64,000 nt of DNA from assembly GCA_018004935.1 (NCBI GenBank), contig JAGNBF010000030.1, positions 1-64,000 on the forward strand. Reading direction: 5' to 3'. The position numbers and the translations under genes are program-made. Below are positions 16,201-53,240 of this stretch, in pieces (the first letter of the stretch is position 1; each line of letters opens with the position of its first letter). The notes beneath the pieces are model-generated. The model ran no database searches. It was not told the DNA's origin and was given only the letters and a program-made list of their open reading frames with translations. The DNA is from Chloroflexota bacterium. Lineage in GTDB: Bacteria; Chloroflexota; Anaerolineae; Promineifilales; Promineifilaceae.

Positions 16201-16962
16201 ATGTCTGATCAGCCACAACAGGATCAGCCCTTACGACCGGATGGGGCTAACCTGAATCAACCTGTAACCCCTGTCTATTTGCGGCCGCAACGCCCCTTAT
16301 TCCCCCCTACAAATCAAACATCTCCCGAACCGGTCGTTGCTCATGCCCCCGCGTGGGGACAACCCACTTCTGAAGTGGTGCGCGAAATCATCGAGACTTT
16401 GCTCCTGACCCTTCTCATTTTTTGGCTGGTCAATGCCGTCATCGGGCGCAATCGTATCGAAGGTCCCAGTATGCAACCTAATTTCTGGACGGGTGAGTAT
16501 CTCATCAGTAGCAAATTGAGTTACTACCTGGATGAGCCACAGCGGGGTGATGTAATTGTCTTTCGCCATCCCAACAATTCAGGGACCAATCTAATCAAAC
16601 GAGTGATTGGCTTGCCCGGTGATACCGTGATTATTCGGGATCAAATGGTTTTTGTGAATGGTGACCCCTTAGATGAACCTTATATTAATGCCCCCCCCGC
16701 CTATAGTGGTGAATGGCATGTGCCAGATGCTAACTATTTTGTGCTGGGTGACAATCGTAATAACTCTAGCGACTCCCATAATTGGAACTTTGTGCCTGAG
16801 CAGAACATCATTGGCAAGGCTCTGGCTGTGCTCTGGCCTCCGGACAAGTGGGGTTATGTACTTCATTACCGGCAGAATGCTCTGGTAAGTGATGAAGTGC
16901 CAATCCCTATAAGTTTGCCCCAGGTAAACGAGATGCTTAACCATGAGTCAATCACCCGCTGA
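16201..16962 (+). CDS. lepB: Signal peptidase I
   Basis: 253 residues. A Pro/Gln-rich cytoplasmic N-terminus (1-60) precedes one membrane helix (about 66-84). The catalytic Ser is in EGPSMQP (S90) and the general base Lys in LIKRVIGLPGD (K133), followed by box E GDNRNNSSDS. It cleaves signal peptides from exported proteins such as the protease and lipidless secreted proteins. GGAGG lies 14 bases upstream of the ATG, slightly far. Its end overlaps the RpiB-like gene by 20 bases, tying a house-keeping secretion gene to the start of the microcompartment locus, probably by chance of gene order. Confidence 0.94.
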   Translation: MSDQPQQDQPLRPDGANLNQPVTPVYLRPQRPLFPPTNQTSPEPVVAHAPAWGQPTSEVVREIIETLLLTLLIFWLVNAVIGRNRIEGPSMQPNFWTGEYLISSKLSYYLDEPQRGDVIVFRHPNNSGTNLIKRVIGLPGDTVIIRDQMVFVNGDPLDEPYINAPPAYSGEWHVPDANYFVLGDNRNNSSDSHNWNFVPEQNIIGKALAVLWPPDKWGYVLHYRQNALVSDEVPIPISLPQVNEMLNHESITR

Positions 16963-17644
16963 TGTAGCCGCGTTGGTGCGCGAGGTTGTTAGCCGTACTT
17001 TGGGGCAAAACCTGCCCGCGGCCGCAACGCGACCTATTGTTGATGCTGACCTCGTGCAAACCTGGCCTGCCGGTTCGGAGCAGGTGATTGCCCCTGGTAC
17101 GCTCATTACCCCCCTGGCGCGACAGGTAGCGCTAGAACGGCGTATCCACTTGCGGGAGGGCCAGGAGCCGGTCGCGGCCGCAAACCCCATACTAAAACTG
17201 GTTGCCCTCGCCGCTGATCACGGAGGGTATGCGCTAAAAGAACAATTAAAGGTGTTTATCCAAAAAGAGGGGTATACCGTACTCGATTGCGGCACCCATA
17301 ACACCGATGCTGTAGATTACCCGGATTTGGCGTACGCGGCCGCGCAACACGTCTCCAATGGTAAAGCATGGCGTGCCATTATCATTGATGGCGCGGGCAT
17401 TGGGAGTTGTATGGTGGCCAATAAAGTGCCAGGGGTACGGGCGGCTATGTGTTATGATCAGGCGACCGCCAGTAATAGTCGTGAACACAACAACGCCAAT
17501 ATCCTCACTCTAGGAGCCGGATTGATCGGTCCTAACCTGGCCCAACAAATTGTCAAAACTTTCCTCACGACCGAATTTGCCGGAGGGCGTCATACCCGTC
17601 GGGTAGACAAAATAGACGCTATCGCTCGCCGCTTCCAAAAATGA
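16943..17644 (+). CDS. RpiB/LacAB-family sugar-phosphate isomerase with microcompartment-type N-terminal extension
   Basis: 233 residues. The isomerase core begins near residue 84 (LVALAADHGGYALKEQL) and is of normal RpiB length; motifs VDYPDLA, GAGIGSCMVANKVPGVRAA and SREHNNANIL are clear. The first 75-80 residues are extra: a short amphipathic helix (PADVAALVREVVSRTLGQ) plus linker, the form of a BMC encapsulation peptide. The Cys of the E. coli RpiB CGTGIG motif is replaced by Asp-Gly, so the exact substrate may differ. In sugar-phosphate BMC loci such enzymes accompany DeoC. It overlaps lepB by 20 bases. Three GCGGCCGC octamers fall in this gene. Confidence 0.85.
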   Translation: MSQSPADVAALVREVVSRTLGQNLPAAATRPIVDADLVQTWPAGSEQVIAPGTLITPLARQVALERRIHLREGQEPVAAANPILKLVALAADHGGYALKEQLKVFIQKEGYTVLDCGTHNTDAVDYPDLAYAAAQHVSNGKAWRAIIIDGAGIGSCMVANKVPGVRAAMCYDQATASNSREHNNANILTLGAGLIGPNLAQQIVKTFLTTEFAGGRHTRRVDKIDAIARRFQK

Positions 17645-18033: not shown

Positions 18034-18912
18034 ATGTCACACCCTTCTTATGATCGCACCACAGTTGAGCGCGTTATCGAAGAAGTTACCCGCGAGGTGC
18101 TTCTGCGGCTCAATCAATCTGCCAAGACAGCCGAACCCGGGGGTTGTAATTGCACCGATGGTTCTTGTGTACAGAATTGCGCCGGACGGGTAGATCGCGT
18201 GGTGCAGGCGGGAGCGGTCAGAGTAACAGCAACCTTGGGCGTGCGGCCGCAAAACCAAAACGTCGCCAGCCTCATTGATCACACCCTACTCAAACCCGAA
18301 GCTACTCAAGATCAGATTGCTCAACTCTGTTACGAAGCCCGTACGCATCGTTTTGCTTCTGTGTGCATCAATCCTACCCATGTCAAGTTATCCGCCCAAC
18401 TGCTAAAAGATTCTGGCGTACCTGTCTGCACCGTTGTCGGTTTTCCTCTGGGGGCAACCCCAGCTACCGTCAAGGCATTTGAAACTCAACAGGCCATTCG
18501 TGATGGGGCCAGTGAAATAGATATGGTGATTAACATTGGTGCCCTCAAATCAAAAGATTATCATACCGTCTACGAAGACATCGCCACTGTTGCCCGCACC
18601 GCTCACGCCGGTAATGCTCTGCTTAAAGTCATCATCGAAACAGCTTTGCTCACCGATGAAGAAAAAGTAGTGGCTTGCCAACTTTCTAAAACAGCGGGAG
18701 CGGATTTTGTCAAAACATCTACAGGGTTTGGCCCAGGCGGAGCCACCGTTGAAGATGTGACCCTGATGCGTCGTATCGTAGGGCCAGAATTGGGGGTGAA
18801 GGCTTCGGGTGGCGTGCGTAATTATGCCGATGCCCAGGCTATGATTGCCGCTGGCGCAAATCGCCTGGGGGCCAGTGCCGGGGTGAGAATTGTTAAAGAG
18901 GCGCACAAATGA
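18034..18912 (+). CDS. deoC: Deoxyribose-phosphate aldolase with encapsulation-type N-terminus
   Basis: 292 residues against about 220 for plain DeoC. The extra ~70 N-terminal residues start with a predicted amphipathic helix ([21 protein letters not shown]), then a Cys-rich linker ([14 protein letters not shown]). The TIM-barrel core runs from about 78 with [28 protein letters not shown], the Schiff-base Lys in FVKTSTG (K227) and GVKASGGV. It splits 2-deoxyribose-5-phosphate into acetaldehyde and glyceraldehyde-3-phosphate. DeoC is the signature enzyme of sugar-phosphate-utilising BMCs. The four-cysteine linker is odd and could bind metal or form disulfides. It ends in a 4-base overlap with the next gene. 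Confidence 0.95.
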
Positions 18913-19166
18913 ATGTTTGTCCGAATTGTTCCGTTGGCCGTTTACATGAAGCCCGGGTTTCTTACCTGGCTGAACTCGATGGCTATCAGGTGATGATTCC
19001 TTATGTACCATCAGTAGTGTGTGATGTTTGCGGCCGCATTGAATACGACCTCGAATATATGCACCTGCTCGAAAACCTGACCCGCCAACCAGCTATCACG
19101 GCCACAAAACAGCCCCCGGTGGTGCGCCCTTACCCACGCCCCGCTGTCAATCCGCAACAACCATAG
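18909..19166 (+). CDS. Small YgiT/MqsA-type zinc-finger protein
   Basis: 85 residues. The N-terminal half has two CxxC pairs (CPNC at about 4-7 and CDVCG at about 38-41) in the arrangement of the YgiT-type (MqsA N-terminal) zinc finger, followed by a short helix and a Pro-rich tail. It lacks the helix-turn-helix of full MqsA. The ATGA overlap with deoC indicates translational coupling, so it belongs to the microcompartment operon. Its role is unknown: a zinc-binding regulator or structural accessory is possible. Confidence 0.8.
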
Positions 19167-19529: not shown

Positions 19530-20168
19530 ATGAGCGTTGAACTCCGTAGCTACGTTTTTCTTGATAGTTTACAGCCGCAACATGCCGCCTTCCTGGGTAC
19601 TGTGGCGCGAGGTTTTTTACCCTTACCTGGTGATGCTTCTCTCTGGATTGAGATTTCACCCGGTATTGAGATTAACCGCATCACGGATGTGGCCCTTAAA
19701 GCAACGGATGTTAAACCCGGGATGCAAATTGTTGAACGGCTTTATGGTCTCCTAGAAGTTCACTCATCTAGCCAGGCCGAAGCCCGTGCCGCTGGCGCGG
19801 CTATCCTGGAAGCATTGGAATTACGGGAAGAAGATCGGCTTAAACCCCGCGTCATCTCCAGCCAGATCATCCGTAACATTGATCCACACCAGACACAGTT
19901 GATCAACCGGATGCGTCATGGACACATGATCTTGGCCGGACAGACATTGTATGTGATGGAAGTACAGCCCGCCGCCTATGCCGCTCTGGCCGCCAACGAA
20001 GCTGAGAAAGCGGCCGCACTCAATATTCTTGAAGTGCAAGCCTATGGTAGTTTTGGGCGTGTTTATCTGGGTGGCGAAGAGCGCGATATTATGGCCGGAT
20101 ATCAGGCGGCCATTGACGCTATTGAAAGTATCGGTGGCCGCGTACCCGAAAGCGGCCGCAATGAGTGA
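19530..20168 (+). CDS. BMC-T shell protein, tandem (CsoS1D-like, permuted) type
   Basis: 212 residues, the length of two BMC domains. Each half has the permuted topology of the CsoS1D/double-stacking BMC-T group: [30 protein letters not shown] in the first half and [26 protein letters not shown] at the end of the second. Such pseudohexameric trimers can stack in pairs and have gated large pores thought to pass bulky cofactors. It is the first of five shell genes. Two GCGGCCGC octamers lie near its end (about 20009 and 20152). Confidence 0.85.
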
Positions 20169-20281: not shown

Positions 20282-20572
20282 ATGACAGATGCCCTAGGTA
20301 TGATTGAAACCCGTGGCTTTGCCGCCATGGTTGAAGCGTCTGACGCCATGGTAAAAGCGGCTAAAGTCGAACTGGTTGGTTATGAAAAAATCGGCGGCGG
20401 ATATGTCACAGCCATTGTGCGTGGTGATGTCGCGGCGGTAAAAGCGGCCCTGGAAGCCGGAGCACGCGGCGCGGAAAAAGTGGGTGAAGTCGTTTCTATC
20501 CATGTCATCCCGCGGCCGCATACCAACATTGACCAGGTTTTGCCTCTTGGCCGTCAAAATGGGAGTGAATAG
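20282..20572 (+). CDS. BMC-H hexameric shell protein (PduA/EutM-like)
   Basis: 96 residues, one BMC domain of normal length: [28 protein letters not shown], then [19 protein letters not shown] and a HVIPRPH end. Hexamers tile the facets of the shell and their central pores pass small polar substrates. An AGGAGG ribosome binding site sits at optimal spacing and is the best of the locus, in line with the major shell component needing the most copies. It lies between the BMC-T and BMC-P genes. Confidence 0.95.
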
Positions 20573-20646: not shown

Positions 20647-20937
20647 ATGTTTCTCGGTAAAGTTATCGGCACACTCGTTGCCACCCAAAAAGAAGAAAGC
20701 CTGAACGGGCTGAAATTCCTGGTGGTTCGCCGTTTGACGGTAGATAGCCAGGATACCAGTGGCTATGTCGTGGCTGTGGATGCTGTTGGTGCCGGTGTAG
20801 GTGAAGTGGTTATGGTAGCCAGTGGTAGCTCCGCCCGCCAAACTCGCATCACTGACAAACGCCCCTGTGACGCCGTCATCATGGCTATTGTAGATACGTG
20901 GGAAGTGGACGGGGTGGAAAAATACCGGAAGGATTGA
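20647..20937 (+). CDS. BMC-P pentameric vertex protein (EutN/CcmL family)
   Basis: 96 residues. The family start MFLGKVIGTLVATQKEESLNG is clear, as are LKFLVVRRL, the AVDAVGAGVGEVV loop and the DAVIMAIVD end. Pentamers cap the twelve vertices of the shell. It lies 74 bases after the BMC-H gene. A second BMC-P is encoded at 24984. Several BMC loci carry two or three non-identical pentamers. Confidence 0.95.
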   Translation: MFLGKVIGTLVATQKEESLNGLKFLVVRRLTVDSQDTSGYVVAVDAVGAGVGEVVMVASGSSARQTRITDKRPCDAVIMAIVDTWEVDGVEKYRKD

Positions 20938-21006: not shown

Positions 21007-22461
21007 ATGGATGAACAACAGATCCAATCCATCATAGACCGAGTGATGCGGGAAATAGGCCAGGGAACGGCTCCCACTGTCGCGGCCGCGCCCTTGTCCC
21101 CGCGATCTACTCCTTTGCCTGCTCCACCCACCGGCCAACTGGGGTTATTTGATACGCTCGATGAAGCAGTCGCGGCCGCGAGCCACGCCTTCCGACGCCT
21201 GCACCAACTTCCTCTCACCCTACGGAAAGAGATGGTTGCCCAAATGCGTCAGGCTGGGCGCGAAAATGCCGCCGTCCTGGCTGAATTAGCCCACAGCGAA
21301 ACGGGAATGGGACGTGTCGAAGACAAAATCGTCAAAAACATCCTCAACGCCACCAAAACCCAGGGACCAGAAAGCCTCAATACACAAGCCTGGAGTGGCG
21401 ATGACGGCCTGACAATTGTAGAATACGCCCCTTATGGCGTGATTGGGGCACTGACCCCCAGCACCAACCCCACCAGCACCGTTATCTGCAACGCTATTGC
21501 CATGGTCTCCGCGGGTAACGCCGTGGTCTTTAACGCCCACCCCAGCTCCCAAAATAGCTCCAACCGCACGGTGCAACTACTCAACCAGGCCATCCAACGG
21601 GCTGGGGGCCCACCTGATTTACTGACCGCCGTTCGCCAGCCCACGTTAGAATCAGCTACCGCACTCATGCAACACAAAGGCATCCGCCTGTTGGCCGTGA
21701 CCGGGGGCACGCCGGTTGTGCGTGCCGCCATGCAAAGTGGCAAACGGGCCATCTGCGCCGGGCCAGGTAACCCCCCCGTCGTCGTAGATGAGACCGCCGA
21801 TATCGCTCAGGCAGGCCGTGACATTGTGATTGGTGGCTCGTTTGATAACAATATTGTGTGCACCACCGAAAAAGAAACCTTTGCCGTAGATCGTATTACT
21901 GACGAACTGATTCAAGTGATGACGCGCAATGGGGCGGTTAAACTGAACTCCTGGCAATTTGAACGGCTCTGGAAAGCCGTTACGGCAAAAGATCGTGGCC
22001 CTGGTAAACCAGCCGATATGAACAAAGCTTTTATCGGTAAAAATGCCGCCGTTTTGCTTAAAGAGATTGGCATGTCAGTGGGGGCAGAAGTACGCCAGAT
22101 CGTGGCAGAGGTAGATCGGCAACACCCCGCTGTCTGGTCAGAACAAATGATGCCCATCATGCCCGTGGTGCGGGTAGCCAGTGCCGATGAAGGTATTGAT
22201 CTGGCGGTGGCGGCTGAGCACGGCTTTCGCCACACAGCCGTCATGCACTCAAAAAACCTGGATCACCTGAGCCGGATGGCACGCGAGATGGATTGCAGTA
22301 TCTTTGTGAAAAATGGACCAAACCTGGCCGGTGTCGGTTATGGGGGTGAGGGGCATTGCTCTTTCACCATTGCCAGCCCTACCGGCGAAGGATTAACCGG
22401 GCCTATTAGTTTTAGCCGCTTACGCCGCTGTACTCTGGTAGATTCATTCCGTATCGTTTAA
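21007..22461 (+). CDS. CoA-acylating aldehyde dehydrogenase (EutE/PduP-like)
   Basis: 484 residues, typical of PduP/EutE. Residues 1-18 (DEQQIQSIIDRVMREIG) form the short amphipathic helix known to target such enzymes into BMC shells, followed by a Pro/Ala linker (20-45). The ALDH fold then shows ALTPSTNPTSTVICN, AVTGGTPVV, CAGPGN and the catalytic Cys in NNIVCTTEK (C285). It oxidises acetaldehyde from DeoC to acetyl-CoA with NAD+ and CoA inside the shell. Two GCGGCCGC octamers lie within the linker region (21081, 21173). Confidence 0.95.
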   Translation: MDEQQIQSIIDRVMREIGQGTAPTVAAAPLSPRSTPLPAPPTGQLGLFDTLDEAVAAASHAFRRLHQLPLTLRKEMVAQMRQAGRENAAVLAELAHSETGMGRVEDKIVKNILNATKTQGPESLNTQAWSGDDGLTIVEYAPYGVIGALTPSTNPTSTVICNAIAMVSAGNAVVFNAHPSSQNSSNRTVQLLNQAIQRAGGPPDLLTAVRQPTLESATALMQHKGIRLLAVTGGTPVVRAAMQSGKRAICAGPGNPPVVVDETADIAQAGRDIVIGGSFDNNIVCTTEKETFAVDRITDELIQVMTRNGAVKLNSWQFERLWKAVTAKDRGPGKPADMNKAFIGKNAAVLLKEIGMSVGAEVRQIVAEVDRQHPAVWSEQMMPIMPVVRVASADEGIDLAVAAEHGFRHTAVMHSKNLDHLSRMAREMDCSIFVKNGPNLAGVGYGGEGHCSFTIASPTGEGLTGPISFSRLRRCTLVDSFRIV

Positions 22462-22521: not shown

Positions 22522-23055
22522 ATGACCCTGGGCCAACTTGGACGTTCACTGGTTAATATGGATATTTTCACCGATGCCTACCGGGTAACGGGACGGGCGG
22601 CTGTGGGGACGAGCGGTATCCACGGCGAACTTAGTAATCCTAATTCTAACTTTTTGGATTTACACGATGCCTATATTTCCCGTATTCATGAGCCGGGAAC
22701 GATAATTGCCAGTTACAACCTGGCGGCTTTTCGCAAAGATAATATCAATTTTATTGTTCTGACGGATAGACGGGATGGGGTTCCTGTAGGAACCCAACAT
22801 GGTCGCTCAATTTTCACCCGCGGCCGCCCCGTACCCGCTTATCTCACTGTGCCTTCATTTGAGATCAAGGGAGAACTTATTTACGAGGGTAAAGCATCAC
22901 CGAATGCGATTTTAACCCAGGCATTAGGTCGGTTTCTGCTTATTTTTAGCGCAACCGCCTCTGCTTCCTTGCACCCAGAAATTAATTACAGTGGTGATTT
23001 AATTTTGGTGCATAAGGAACGCATTGGTATTTTGTGCCTGGAAAAACCGCGCTAA
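22522..23055 (+). CDS. Protein of unknown function inside the BMC locus
   Basis: 177 residues, not recognised. It appears to be a soluble alpha/beta protein with no membrane segment, coiled coil or Cys pairs. Recurrent stretches are ELSNPNSNFLDLHDAYISRIHEPGT, NFIVLTDRRDGVP and LTVPSFEIKGELIYEG. The ATG at 22522 has no clear ribosome binding site; a second ATG lies at 22558. Its place between the dehydrogenase and the receiver-ATPase genes, on the same strand and 60 bases from the former, suggests a microcompartment-linked job, for example as partner of the ATPase. Confidence 0.7.
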   Translation: MTLGQLGRSLVNMDIFTDAYRVTGRAAVGTSGIHGELSNPNSNFLDLHDAYISRIHEPGTIIASYNLAAFRKDNINFIVLTDRRDGVPVGTQHGRSIFTRGRPVPAYLTVPSFEIKGELIYEGKASPNAILTQALGRFLLIFSATASASLHPEINYSGDLILVHKERIGILCLEKPR

Positions 23056-23157
23056 GTTCTTGCTCTACCTCTAGCTCTCGCTCTTATATTGTTAGATGTC
23101 ACACAATGGTTTGGCCTGGCAGTATCATAGGCAACTGGCAATTTGGGGAGGCTAACA

Positions 23158-24282
23158 TTGGCGAACATCTTTGTGATAGATGATGATGCTCAACTTTTAC
23201 AGATGGTGGGTTTGATGTTGAAGCGGGGTGGTCATACCGCTACCCTGATCAATAACCCCTTTGAAGGATTGGAGAAGCTCAAAGAGGCAAAGCCAGATTT
23301 GCTTATTCTGGATGTAATGATGCCTGGAATAAGTGGGCATGATTTGACGCGCCAAATACGGGATACGGAGGAATTGGCTTATTTGCCGGTTTTGATTTTG
23401 ACGGCACGTGCCCAAGAGGTTGACCGGGTTACCGCATTAAAAAGTGGTGCGGATGATTACATGAGCAAACCGGTAACGTCTCATGAACTTATGGAGCGGA
23501 TTGACGGTTTGCTTTCTAGTAAGCAAGCCGTGGCTAAGCCAGGCCGAGAAGGCATTATTTTGAGCTTTTTCTCTATGCGGGGTGGCGTTGGCCGAACGAC
23601 GTTGGCGGTGAATCTGGCGACGGCTTTGCGCCGCCTGACGCGTGAGGAAGTATGTGTGGTAGATTTTTCCCCTTCTGGGGGACAGGCGGCCATGCATTTG
23701 CGGGTGCAACCTAAGGTGAGTTGGGATGAACTCGCGGCCGCAGAACGACTTGATCCCACACTCCTCAAAGATTCCTTGCTCTTGCACCAATCCGGTTTGC
23801 GGCTGTTGGCCGCGCCCATGTTGCCCCAATTACCTACCCGCCCGTCTAGTGATTTTGTGAATCAGGTTCTAAAAATGTTGCGCGAGCGGGTGGCTTTTAC
23901 TGTAATTGATTTGCCCCCGATAATCAGCCCGGCGGTACGGGCCAGCCTATCGGCTTCTGATATTGTTTTCCATGTAGTGGCCCCGGAAGTTGTTTCGGTG
24001 CAGGTAGAAGTTCAGGCAAACCGTGCCCTGATCAAGTTTGGTCTGAATTTACAGCAAAAAATTCATGTGTTAAACCAGACAACACCAGAGGCCCAATTAC
24101 CTGCCTCTGCCGTGGAAAAAGGGTTAGGCACACGCCTGCCTTTCCAATTTGGTTTTGACGAGCATCAGTCACGGGCATTGGCGCAGGGGGTTCCCCTGGC
24201 GATTACTACAACTCAGTCCCCCATCCCCACCGTCTCGCTTAACATGGCCGAGGCGATCTGGCAAAAGATTGTGAAAGGCTAA
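23158..24282 (+). CDS. Receiver-ParA/CpaE-like ATPase embedded in the BMC locus
   Basis: 374 residues. The start is the TTG at 23158, six bases after GGGGAGG. The receiver domain (3-120) is complete: acidic cluster D8-D10, phospho-acceptor D52 (LILDVMMPG), T82 and K104 (SKP). A MinD/ParA-type domain follows (133-374): P-loop MRGGVGRTT in which both the signature Lys and the P-loop Lys are Arg (R141, R146), VVDFSPSGG for switch I and VIDLPP for Walker B. CpaE/TadZ proteins with such layouts localise pili or cell-pole machines. ParA-like McdA positions carboxysomes. Its TAA abuts the ATG of the next shell gene, so a BMC positioning or assembly role is inferred. Confidence 0.88.
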   Translation: MANIFVIDDDAQLLQMVGLMLKRGGHTATLINNPFEGLEKLKEAKPDLLILDVMMPGISGHDLTRQIRDTEELAYLPVLILTARAQEVDRVTALKSGADDYMSKPVTSHELMERIDGLLSSKQAVAKPGREGIILSFFSMRGGVGRTTLAVNLATALRRLTREEVCVVDFSPSGGQAAMHLRVQPKVSWDELAAAERLDPTLLKDSLLLHQSGLRLLAAPMLPQLPTRPSSDFVNQVLKMLRERVAFTVIDLPPIISPAVRASLSASDIVFHVVAPEVVSVQVEVQANRALIKFGLNLQQKIHVLNQTTPEAQLPASAVEKGLGTRLPFQFGFDEHQSRALAQGVPLAITTTQSPIPTVSLNMAEAIWQKIVKG

Positions 24283-24867
24283 ATGGAACCTGCTCTCGCC
24301 TTACTCGAATTTGATAGTTTGGCCCTGGGGATTCAAGCGGGTGATGCTATGGTGAAACGTGCCCCCGTAAGCCAGATTCAAGCCGGGACAATACACCCGG
24401 GGCGCTATCTGGTTTTGGTGGCAGGAGATGTGGCCTCGGTAGAAGAGGCGGTGGAGGCGGGGAAGGAACTGGCCCAGAAGGAGTTGCGTGACCTGGTTTT
24501 TCTACCCCATGTGCACCCAGATGTGGTAATGGCCTTGCGCGGCGGCCGCAACCAGATCATCGGTGAGGCATTAGGGGTGGTAGAAACGAGCACGGTCGCG
24601 GCCGCGATTCAGGCGGCAGATGCCGGTGTTAAGGGGGCCGAGGTCGGGTTGTGGCAGTTGCGTCTGGCGGATGGGTTAGGTGGCAAAGGGTTGGTGCTTT
24701 TTACTGGCCTGGTAGCTGATGTAGAAGCGGCAGTAGAAATTGGTTGCGGCCGCGTGGCCAGTCAACTCATTCGCTCCGTCATCATCCCCCAATTGCATGA
24801 AGAAATGCAAACCAACCTGGGCGGAACTGGTCGTTTTGGTCAACCCTTTGCCTGGCCCGTCTACTAA
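24283..24867 (+). CDS. BMC-T shell protein with two tandem BMC domains (PduT/PduB-like)
   Basis: 194 residues in two BMC repeats: ALLEFDSLALGIQAGDAMVKRAPV with GDVASVEEAVEAG, then ALGVVETSTVAAAIQAADAGVKGAEV with GLVADVEAAVEIG. The order matches PduT-like trimers, but no cysteine sits in the pore loop (IHPGRY), so the iron-sulfur cluster of PduT is not expected. It starts on the base after the stop of the receiver-ATPase, implying coupled translation. Three GCGGCCGC octamers occur in 585 bases. Confidence 0.9.
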   Translation: MEPALALLEFDSLALGIQAGDAMVKRAPVSQIQAGTIHPGRYLVLVAGDVASVEEAVEAGKELAQKELRDLVFLPHVHPDVVMALRGGRNQIIGEALGVVETSTVAAAIQAADAGVKGAEVGLWQLRLADGLGGKGLVLFTGLVADVEAAVEIGCGRVASQLIRSVIIPQLHEEMQTNLGGTGRFGQPFAWPVY

Positions 24868-24983: not shown

Positions 24984-25265
24984 ATGCAATTAGCAAAAGT
25001 AATTGGCACTGTCGTCGCAACCCAAAAATATGAAGGGCTGACCGGGATTAAATTTCTGATTGTTCAGCCACTCAGCAAACGGCAGGAACCAGATGGGGAG
25101 CCTGTTGTGGCGGCTGATGCAACTGCTCAGGCTGGCCCGGGAGAATTAGTTTTTATCGTTGGCAGTCGGGAAGCGGCTCAGGCGATGCCTGTTAAGTTTG
25201 TCCCAGTGGATCACGCAATTGTAGGGATTGTTGACGAGGTTGCCTTAAAGGAAGCGGTGCAGTAA
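24984..25265 (+). CDS. Second BMC-P pentameric vertex protein
   Basis: 93 residues from the ATG at 24984; a longer in-frame start at 24882 would add 34 residues unlike the family. Family start MQLAKVIGTVVATQKYEGLTG, then IKFLIVQPL, VVAADATAQAGPGELVFIVGS and DHAIVGIVDEV. The gap in front holds a copy of the CCGGTCTCCTGAC repeat. It is the last shell gene of the locus. The two pentamers share the same layout but differ in many positions, so they are not a recent duplication. Confidence 0.93.
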   Translation: MQLAKVIGTVVATQKYEGLTGIKFLIVQPLSKRQEPDGEPVVAADATAQAGPGELVFIVGSREAAQAMPVKFVPVDHAIVGIVDEVALKEAVQ

Positions 25266-52043: not shown

Positions 52044-53240
52044 CTATCCATAACTAAACTGATGGGCTAACTGTTTAAACGCAATAGTAGCCTGTCCTCC
52101 ACTACTAATACGCGTAATAGCCGTGGCCTCATTAACTGCCTGGTTAATTTCCTTGGCCGAAATCGTCACCATTCCCACCAGAGAATGACCTAAAAATTCC
52201 TCAATGGCACTTTGCGGCAACTCTGCCCGATTACCAAACGTCAGCATCAAGGCATGAGTTTCTACTCCCTTTACCGCCAGACCTTTCCGGTCAATCTGAG
52301 CCATCAAATGTTTGGCCGCCAAAATGGCGATACGCTCAGGCTTCAGACACACTAAAATCTGAGTTGCCTCTGCCAGCACTGCTTCCGCAACCGGCGACAG
52401 CCCTGTCCCTAGATCAACCACCACATATTGCCCTGGCTGAATACATTGTTGAATCAACAACTTCACCTGTTCCGGATTCAACAACGGCCAATTCTGACCA
52501 ATATTGGGGCGACAAAGCACCAGGTGCAAATTCTTCTCATACTCCAACACCGGCACTGTAAAACGCTCCACTGACATGTTATTCAGGCTATTAATGCCCC
52601 CATCCACCCGTTTATTCAAGTACATGCTTACATGCCCTTGTAACATGTCTAGATCGATCAACGTTGTTTCCCGGCCAGTATCTGCCAGACTAAAAGCGAG
52701 ATTAATCGCCGTTGTCGTCGTGCCTGAACCACCGCGTGCTCCCAGCACCGCAATCAGCCCAAACGGCTGTTTGACCTCTTCCTGAGGCAACCAGGCATCA
52801 AAATTAAGTTGTTCGGTATGTTGAATCGTTGTTGCATCTGTCAGAGTATTCGCCATCGTTTTCAATCGATTCGCTCTGGCCAAAATCGTTTCCACCCGGC
52901 TCAAAAGCTCTTCAGAACGGGTGGGTTTTACCAGATAATCATCAGCTCCGGCATTAAACCCGGCCAATTTTTCCATAGCATCATCATTCGCCGAGAACAT
53001 GATTACCGGGACTTTCCCCAATGTAGCATGAGCACGAATCTGACGACATACTTCATAACCGTTCATATCTGGCATCGAAATGTCTAGCAAGACAATATCC
53101 GGCTTATGAGATTCAAAGAGGTTGAGGGCTTCCATGCCCGATTCCGCCGCCAAAACGACATAACCACTACCCTCTAGAGTCATGACAATCGCTTCACGGG
53201 TTTCCAAATGATCATCTACAACAAGGAGTTTTTCGGCCAT
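52044..53240 (-). CDS. Second receiver-CpaE/MinD-like ATPase
   Basis: 398 residues. Receiver at 1-125 with VVDDH, phospho-acceptor Asp in IVLLDISMPDMNG, FSAND and LVKPTRS. A MinD-type domain starts near 165: P-loop ARGGSGTTTTAINLA, in which the signature Lys is Arg and the P-loop Lys is Thr, then LIDLDMLQGHVSMYL (switch I) and VVDLGTGLS (Walker B). CpaE/TadZ members typically have such degenerate loops and act in pilus localisation. No tad/cpa genes adjoin. It resembles the BMC-linked protein at 23158 in layout but is clearly divergent. Confidence 0.9.
   Translation of the reverse strand: MAEKLLVVDDHLETREAIVMTLEGSGYVVLAAESGMEALNLFESHKPDIVLLDISMPDMNGYEVCRQIRAHATLGKVPVIMFSANDDAMEKLAGFNAGADDYLVKPTRSEELLSRVETILARANRLKTMANTLTDATTIQHTEQLNFDAWLPQEEVKQPFGLIAVLGARGGSGTTTTAINLAFSLADTGRETTLIDLDMLQGHVSMYLNKRVDGGINSLNNMSVERFTVPVLEYEKNLHLVLCRPNIGQNWPLLNPEQVKLLIQQCIQPGQYVVVDLGTGLSPVAEAVLAEATQILVCLKPERIAILAAKHLMAQIDRKGLAVKGVETHALMLTFGNRAELPQSAIEEFLGHSLVGMVTISAKEINQAVNEATAITRISSGGQATIAFKQLAHQFSYG

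Follow-up and report, generated by a model that had tools for sequence, protein, structure and literature searches.

Genes of the locus

The window (the whole 64,000-nucleotide stretch that was analyzed) carries a BMC operon, all of whose genes lie on the + strand. The gene for signal peptidase I, lepB (16201–16962; Pfam Peptidase_S26, E 4.5e-46), overlaps rpiB (16943–17644), which encodes a ribose-5-phosphate isomerase with an N-terminal extension resembling an encapsulation peptide. These are followed by deoC (18034–18912), whose deoxyribose-phosphate aldolase product features an encapsulation-peptide-like helix and a Cys-rich linker, and by the gene for a YgiT-type zinc-finger protein (18909–19166; NCBIfam TIGR03831). 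Three shell genes come next: a CcmP-like BMC-T (19530–20168; NF053796, 385 bits, over the cut-off), a BMC-H (20282–20572; PF00936), and a BMC-P pentamer (20647–20937; PF03319). An acylating aldehyde dehydrogenase (AldDH) of the PduP/EutE type (21007–22461; NF011927, 640 bits), also with an N-terminal helix resembling an encapsulation peptide, precedes the two genes that are the subject of this study, namely those for a tandem DUF6812 protein (22522–23055) and a receiver-ParA protein (23158–24282). Two further shell genes follow. The first encodes a PduT-like BMC-T (24283–24867) with two PF00936 domains (TIGR02526, 114 bits, below the cut-off), and the second encodes another BMC-P pentamer (24984–25265; PF03319, E 1e-27).

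The combination of DeoC (PF01791), RpiB (PF02502), shell genes, and AldDH identifies this as an SPU-type BMC locus as defined in PMC8217296 and PMC4207490, and the CcmP-like BMC-T, BMC-H, and BMC-P are likewise shared with the SPU-type loci surveyed earlier (Axen 2014; Sutter 2021). The initial annotation had placed the receiver-ParA gene in a sugar-phosphate BMC operon, and the genes on both sides of it bear this out.

The receiver-ParA protein

The receiver-ParA open reading frame encodes 374 amino acids and starts with TTG. A ribosome binding site, GGGGAGG, is found in the sequence 5′ of this codon (23145–23151, + strand), and the starts of related proteins align at the same position (M/V-A-x-I); the frame was judged to be a real gene. 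Its product is a fusion of two domains, as had been proposed from the sequence at the outset. Residues 4–115 (23167–23502) constitute a response-regulator receiver (PF00072, E 3.2e-26), and residues 134–352 (23557–24213) constitute a ParA/MinD-fold domain of the BcsQ/AAA_31 type (PF06564/PF13614, E 2e-10). The phosphorylation residues of the receiver, D8, D9, D52, T82, and K104, are all present in the window protein, and when 27 relatives were aligned, no variation was seen at D8, D9, D52, or K104.

The P-loop of the ParA-like domain is degenerate. It reads SMRGGVGRTT, with R141 (codon 23578–23580) and R146 (codon 23593–23595) in place of the lysines of KGGxGKTT; the motif by which ParA/MinD ATPases are recognized, KGGxGKT with both lysines, is thus replaced by RGGVGR. 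Both substitutions had been noted in the initial annotation, where they were taken to mean that the nucleotide chemistry may be unusual. The substitutions are confirmed, but their peculiarity to this protein is not: the first position is arginine almost throughout the clade described below, and the second is arginine, glutamine, lysine, valine, or threonine, with or without a BMC. A special chemistry of the window protein was therefore rejected as an explanation of the arginines. The active-site aspartates D169 and D251 are kept across the aligned relatives while the P-loop lysine varies.

Relatives and the tad pilus

Orthologs were sought in 396 genomes of the class Anaerolineae. Close orthologs within the family shared 47–59% identity; elsewhere in the class, the figure was about 40% for several families and about 33% for additional ones. 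Regions of up to 19 kb surrounding 100 matches were annotated with profiles built from the window's own genes. In a 104-sequence tree (midpoint-rooted), the receiver-ParA orthologs formed one clade (SH-aLRT 99) in which families mostly cohere. Many other receiver-ParA proteins fell outside it, as did the only two tad-linked sequences included, L109 and L134.

The architecture raises the question of whether the protein is a displaced CpaE/TadZ that serves pilus genes elsewhere in the genome. An N-terminal receiver fused to a ParA/MinD fold is common to both, and TadZ also has a deviant P-loop (Walker A) yet binds ATP for dimerization (PMC13170226). However, the phylogeny asked for by the initial annotation separated the clade from the tad-linked proteins with a support of 99, and no tad gene was matched at any clade locus; on these grounds, assignment to a tad pilus was rejected. 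The genome also has a tad CpaE of its own (L109, on contig C60, adjoining TadA-B-C). Moreover, the receiver is canonical here, with the full phosphorylation set, whereas that of TadZ is atypical (PMC13170226), and the DUF6812 partner is a further difference from CpaE/TadZ. A displaced pilus protein is accordingly considered very improbable.

The L109 CpaE ends in KRSGLSRLFGR, which resembles the basic, amphipathic membrane-targeting tail of MinD; such a C-terminal tail is missing from the window protein. A second receiver-ParA gene in the window (52044–53240, − strand; P-loop ARGGSGTTTT) belongs to a different clade and lies near genes for a GAF histidine kinase and a sirtuin-like protein. Two receiver-ParA genes in tandem (L115 and L118) likewise lie outside the clade under study.

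The DUF6812 partner

The gene at 22522–23055 lies directly upstream of the receiver-ParA gene in most relatives. The two halves of its product align with each other, and the protein is regarded as two DUF6812-like units. The window protein itself had no Pfam match; the assignment to DUF6812 (PF20660) comes from its homologs. DUF6812 was matched by 14 of 39 aligned relatives (best E 2.6e-8) and by eight divergent homologs, four of which were over the cut-off. No relative was found in the PDB. The two AlphaFold models of this analysis, calculated from two-row alignments (window and L150, an Anaerolineae relative), had pLDDT values of 42 (for the DUF6812 partner) and 46, too poor for use.

Of the first 60 loci, 47 had a same-strand DUF6812 gene upstream, and so did all BMC-linked loci that were added later. 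When unlinked cases are included, 66 of the 74 genomes with a tree-verified receiver-ParA of the clade also encode the DUF6812 protein; some f11 genomes have retained both genes at separate places. The conserved unit is the receiver-ParA gene with the gene upstream of it, not the junction with the shell gene downstream. That junction, in which the TAA stop codon (24280–24282) directly abuts the ATG (24283) of the two-domain PF00936 shell protein, had been singled out in the initial annotation. It is present in the window, but the distance to the shell gene varies among relatives between −20 and +60, with a single case of 978.

Outside the class, weak DUF6812 homologs were found in two genomes only. 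Within it, distant homologs occur in families f29, f35, and f40 away from this type of receiver-ParA. In f29 (L253, L254, and L256), there is a conserved cluster of lepB, a YgiT-type gene, and a DUF6812 homolog that contains neither receiver-ParA nor BMC genes. In an f15 locus (L267:5834–7492), a DUF6812 homolog lies between a PduS-like gene and PduT-like/BMC-P shell genes, also in the absence of a receiver-ParA.

To our knowledge, DUF6812 has no known function. No paper mentioning it was found in the open literature searched, and the present analysis gives the domain a first genomic context.

Linkage of the pair to BMC operons

The initial annotation had called for a search for the same fusion at other BMC loci, and the fusion was found there. 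Neither outcome that it had named as refuting, absence of the gene beside BMC loci in all relatives or a firm grouping with TadZ proteins next to tad genes, was observed. Among 74 loci, 21 have BMC genes next to the pair, and these are distributed over eight families. Three of the families (f1, f17, and f23) share one gene order: lepB (on contigs that extend that far), rpiB, deoC, YgiT, BMC-T, BMC-H, BMC-P, AldDH, DUF6812, receiver-ParA, BMC-T, BMC-P. Partial or variant arrangements were observed in f8, f42, f46, f47, and f60. In several families, the pair is flanked within the operon by AldDH on one side and a shell gene on the other. The shared order in three families, along with the partial and variant orders in the others, indicates that the linkage is old. 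The AldDH tree largely follows the families (that of BMC-T was resolved less well), which favors inheritance over recent transfer. On these comparisons, the pair was already part of an SPU-type BMC operon in an ancestor shared by many families.

The linkage is not obligate. The pair, or the receiver-ParA gene, was found without BMC genes at many f1 loci and at loci of f11, f12, f51, and f55, and several genomes with such loci have no BMC-P anywhere, although many of the genomes surveyed are fragmentary. The deoC genes shed light on how this came about. BMC-linked DeoC proteins feature the N-terminal encapsulation-peptide-like helix and the Cys-rich linker, both of which are missing at BMC-less loci. 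The BMC-less DeoC proteins of f23, f46, and two f1 loci (L060 and L061) group with the BMC DeoC of their own families, which implies that the BMC was lost there and the pair was kept; the other BMC-less DeoC sequences were placed with low support. The converse was also observed. In genus g2, of the same family as the window, the BMC operon is present without the pair, and its AldDH nests inside the AldDH sequences of pair-bearing loci, implying that this genus lost the pair but kept its BMC. Pair-less BMC loci of similar gene order were found both in the window's own family and in f15, f16, f17, f18, and f2. No replacement ParA was seen in the gaps that were inspected in pair-less BMC loci (g2 and a few others).

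These distributions bear on the idea, put forward in the initial annotation, that the protein positions, counts, or triggers assembly of the compartment. In its full form, the idea would make the protein a McdA analog under phosphorelay control, responsible for spacing, counting, or licensing the SPU compartment, and the DUF6812 protein would be its McdB-like adaptor. The occurrence beside BMC genes in eight families, three of them with a conserved order, speaks for such a dedicated factor, and ParA-type and other NTPases have been reported near BMC operons (PMC8262871, section 10; PMC4207490). McdA, too, has a ParA fold, is encoded in a BMC operon, and lacks the first P-loop lysine (PMC6328274). 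It has been described, however, without a receiver, as an active DNA-stimulated ATPase that works with a helical McdB (PMC6328274), whereas in the clade studied here the second lysine varies as well and the gene is retained even where there is no BMC. A McdB-like partner would be small and helical, with an aromatic C-terminus. In contrast, the DUF6812 partner appears to be beta-rich, as judged from the low-confidence model (pLDDT 42), and no conserved C-terminal aromatic residue was found among its aligned relatives.

Further tests weakened the idea. A BMC-specific subfamily of receiver-ParA proteins was rejected by the AU test (p 2.6e-47), i.e. the BMC-linked copies are not one clade. Root-to-tip distances in f1 were alike with a BMC (0.52–0.82) and without one (0.55–1.09), so the rate was not higher after loss of the BMC. 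Strong DUF6812 homologs and BMC-P were not associated across the 396 genomes (30 with both, 51 with DUF6812 only, 106 with BMC-P only, 209 with neither; odds ratio 1.16, p 0.60), in a 2 × 2 test that ignores phylogeny, uses the DUF6812 partner as a proxy for receiver-ParA, and is based on gene lists transcribed by hand. Of the 30 genomes with both, 21 have the two genes side by side, which speaks for a dedicated factor. The co-occurrence with the compartment that characterizes an McdA-type factor was therefore not observed: the pair is kept where there is no BMC and is lost where a BMC of the same order is kept. By the co-occurrence test, as measured on the DUF6812 partner, a dedicated BMC factor was rejected, and we hold such a role to be unlikely overall. 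Co-expression with the BMC could still reflect a BMC function that was lost or changed elsewhere, and the pair may have a part-time role in the BMC.

The presence of a ParA gene in a BMC operon, even when several families conserve it, does not have to mean that its product positions the compartment. The BMC-less and pair-less sister genera constitute natural controls for the positioning idea.

Proposed role of the pair

The best explanation, to which we assign a probability of roughly 0.55, is that the tandem DUF6812 and receiver-ParA genes form a conserved two-gene module of the class that was anciently part of an SPU-type BMC operon, is not dedicated to the BMC, and acts as a phospho-switch. 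In the mechanism envisioned, a histidine kinase encoded elsewhere would phosphorylate D52 of the receiver. Phosphorylation would alter how the ParA-fold domain assembles (monomer versus dimer, or as an oligomer), and that state may set whether the DUF6812 partner, which is presumed to interact with it, is engaged along with its cargo or held at a cellular site. The ParA domain is probably a nucleotide-binding or structural switch, not a cycling ATPase like ParA or McdA; this reading derives from the conservation of D169 and D251 alongside a variable P-loop lysine. TadZ is reported to bind ATP for dimerization despite its deviant P-loop (PMC13170226), which makes such a switch plausible for receiver-ParA. 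The BMC could be a client of the pair in some lineages. A broader and quite tentative extension, which we think improbable as it stands, is that a phosphorelay-gated, probably non-hydrolyzing ParA with a DUF6812 adaptor constitutes a general placement or scaffolding system of the Anaerolineae, with clients that include the catabolic BMC but are not limited to it.

The neighborhood also admits a regulatory role, in which the pair would be a passenger that exerts phospho-responsive control over operon expression, enzyme activity, or lepB-linked envelope functions and is kept with or without a BMC. A same-strand lepB accompanies the pair in 14 of 20 loci with a BMC and 26 of 41 without one, and lepB adjoins a DUF6812 homolog even where receiver-ParA and BMC genes are both absent. 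On the other hand, the receiver-ParA protein lacks an output domain for DNA binding, and lepB, as a housekeeping gene, may have kept its neighbors by chance. In f12 and f51, moreover, lepB was absent from the flanking sequence retrieved. Regulation of this kind is thus doubtful, and the switch module described above is preferred.

ParA-type NTPases near BMC operons were already known; the receiver-ParA/DUF6812 pair is apparently new. Neither a receiver-ParA in BMC loci nor its pairing with DUF6812, inside or outside a BMC operon, was found in the open papers searched (exclusive of supplements), and the main texts of the SPU surveys (Axen 2014; Sutter 2021; supplements aside) do not mention the pair. 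For a bacterial class that is large and mostly uncultured, the analysis puts a name to a conserved module of two genes.

Other features of the BMC genes

The linker of BMC-linked DeoC (18034–18912 in the window, and in other families) connects the encapsulation-peptide helix with the aldolase core, has three or four cysteines in most families, and is absent from BMC-less DeoC; it may be a site of metal binding or redox chemistry. A third BMC-P pentamer gene was located on another contig of the same genome (L281, C7:38377–38628) among unrelated genes, as a satellite of the window's BMC locus.
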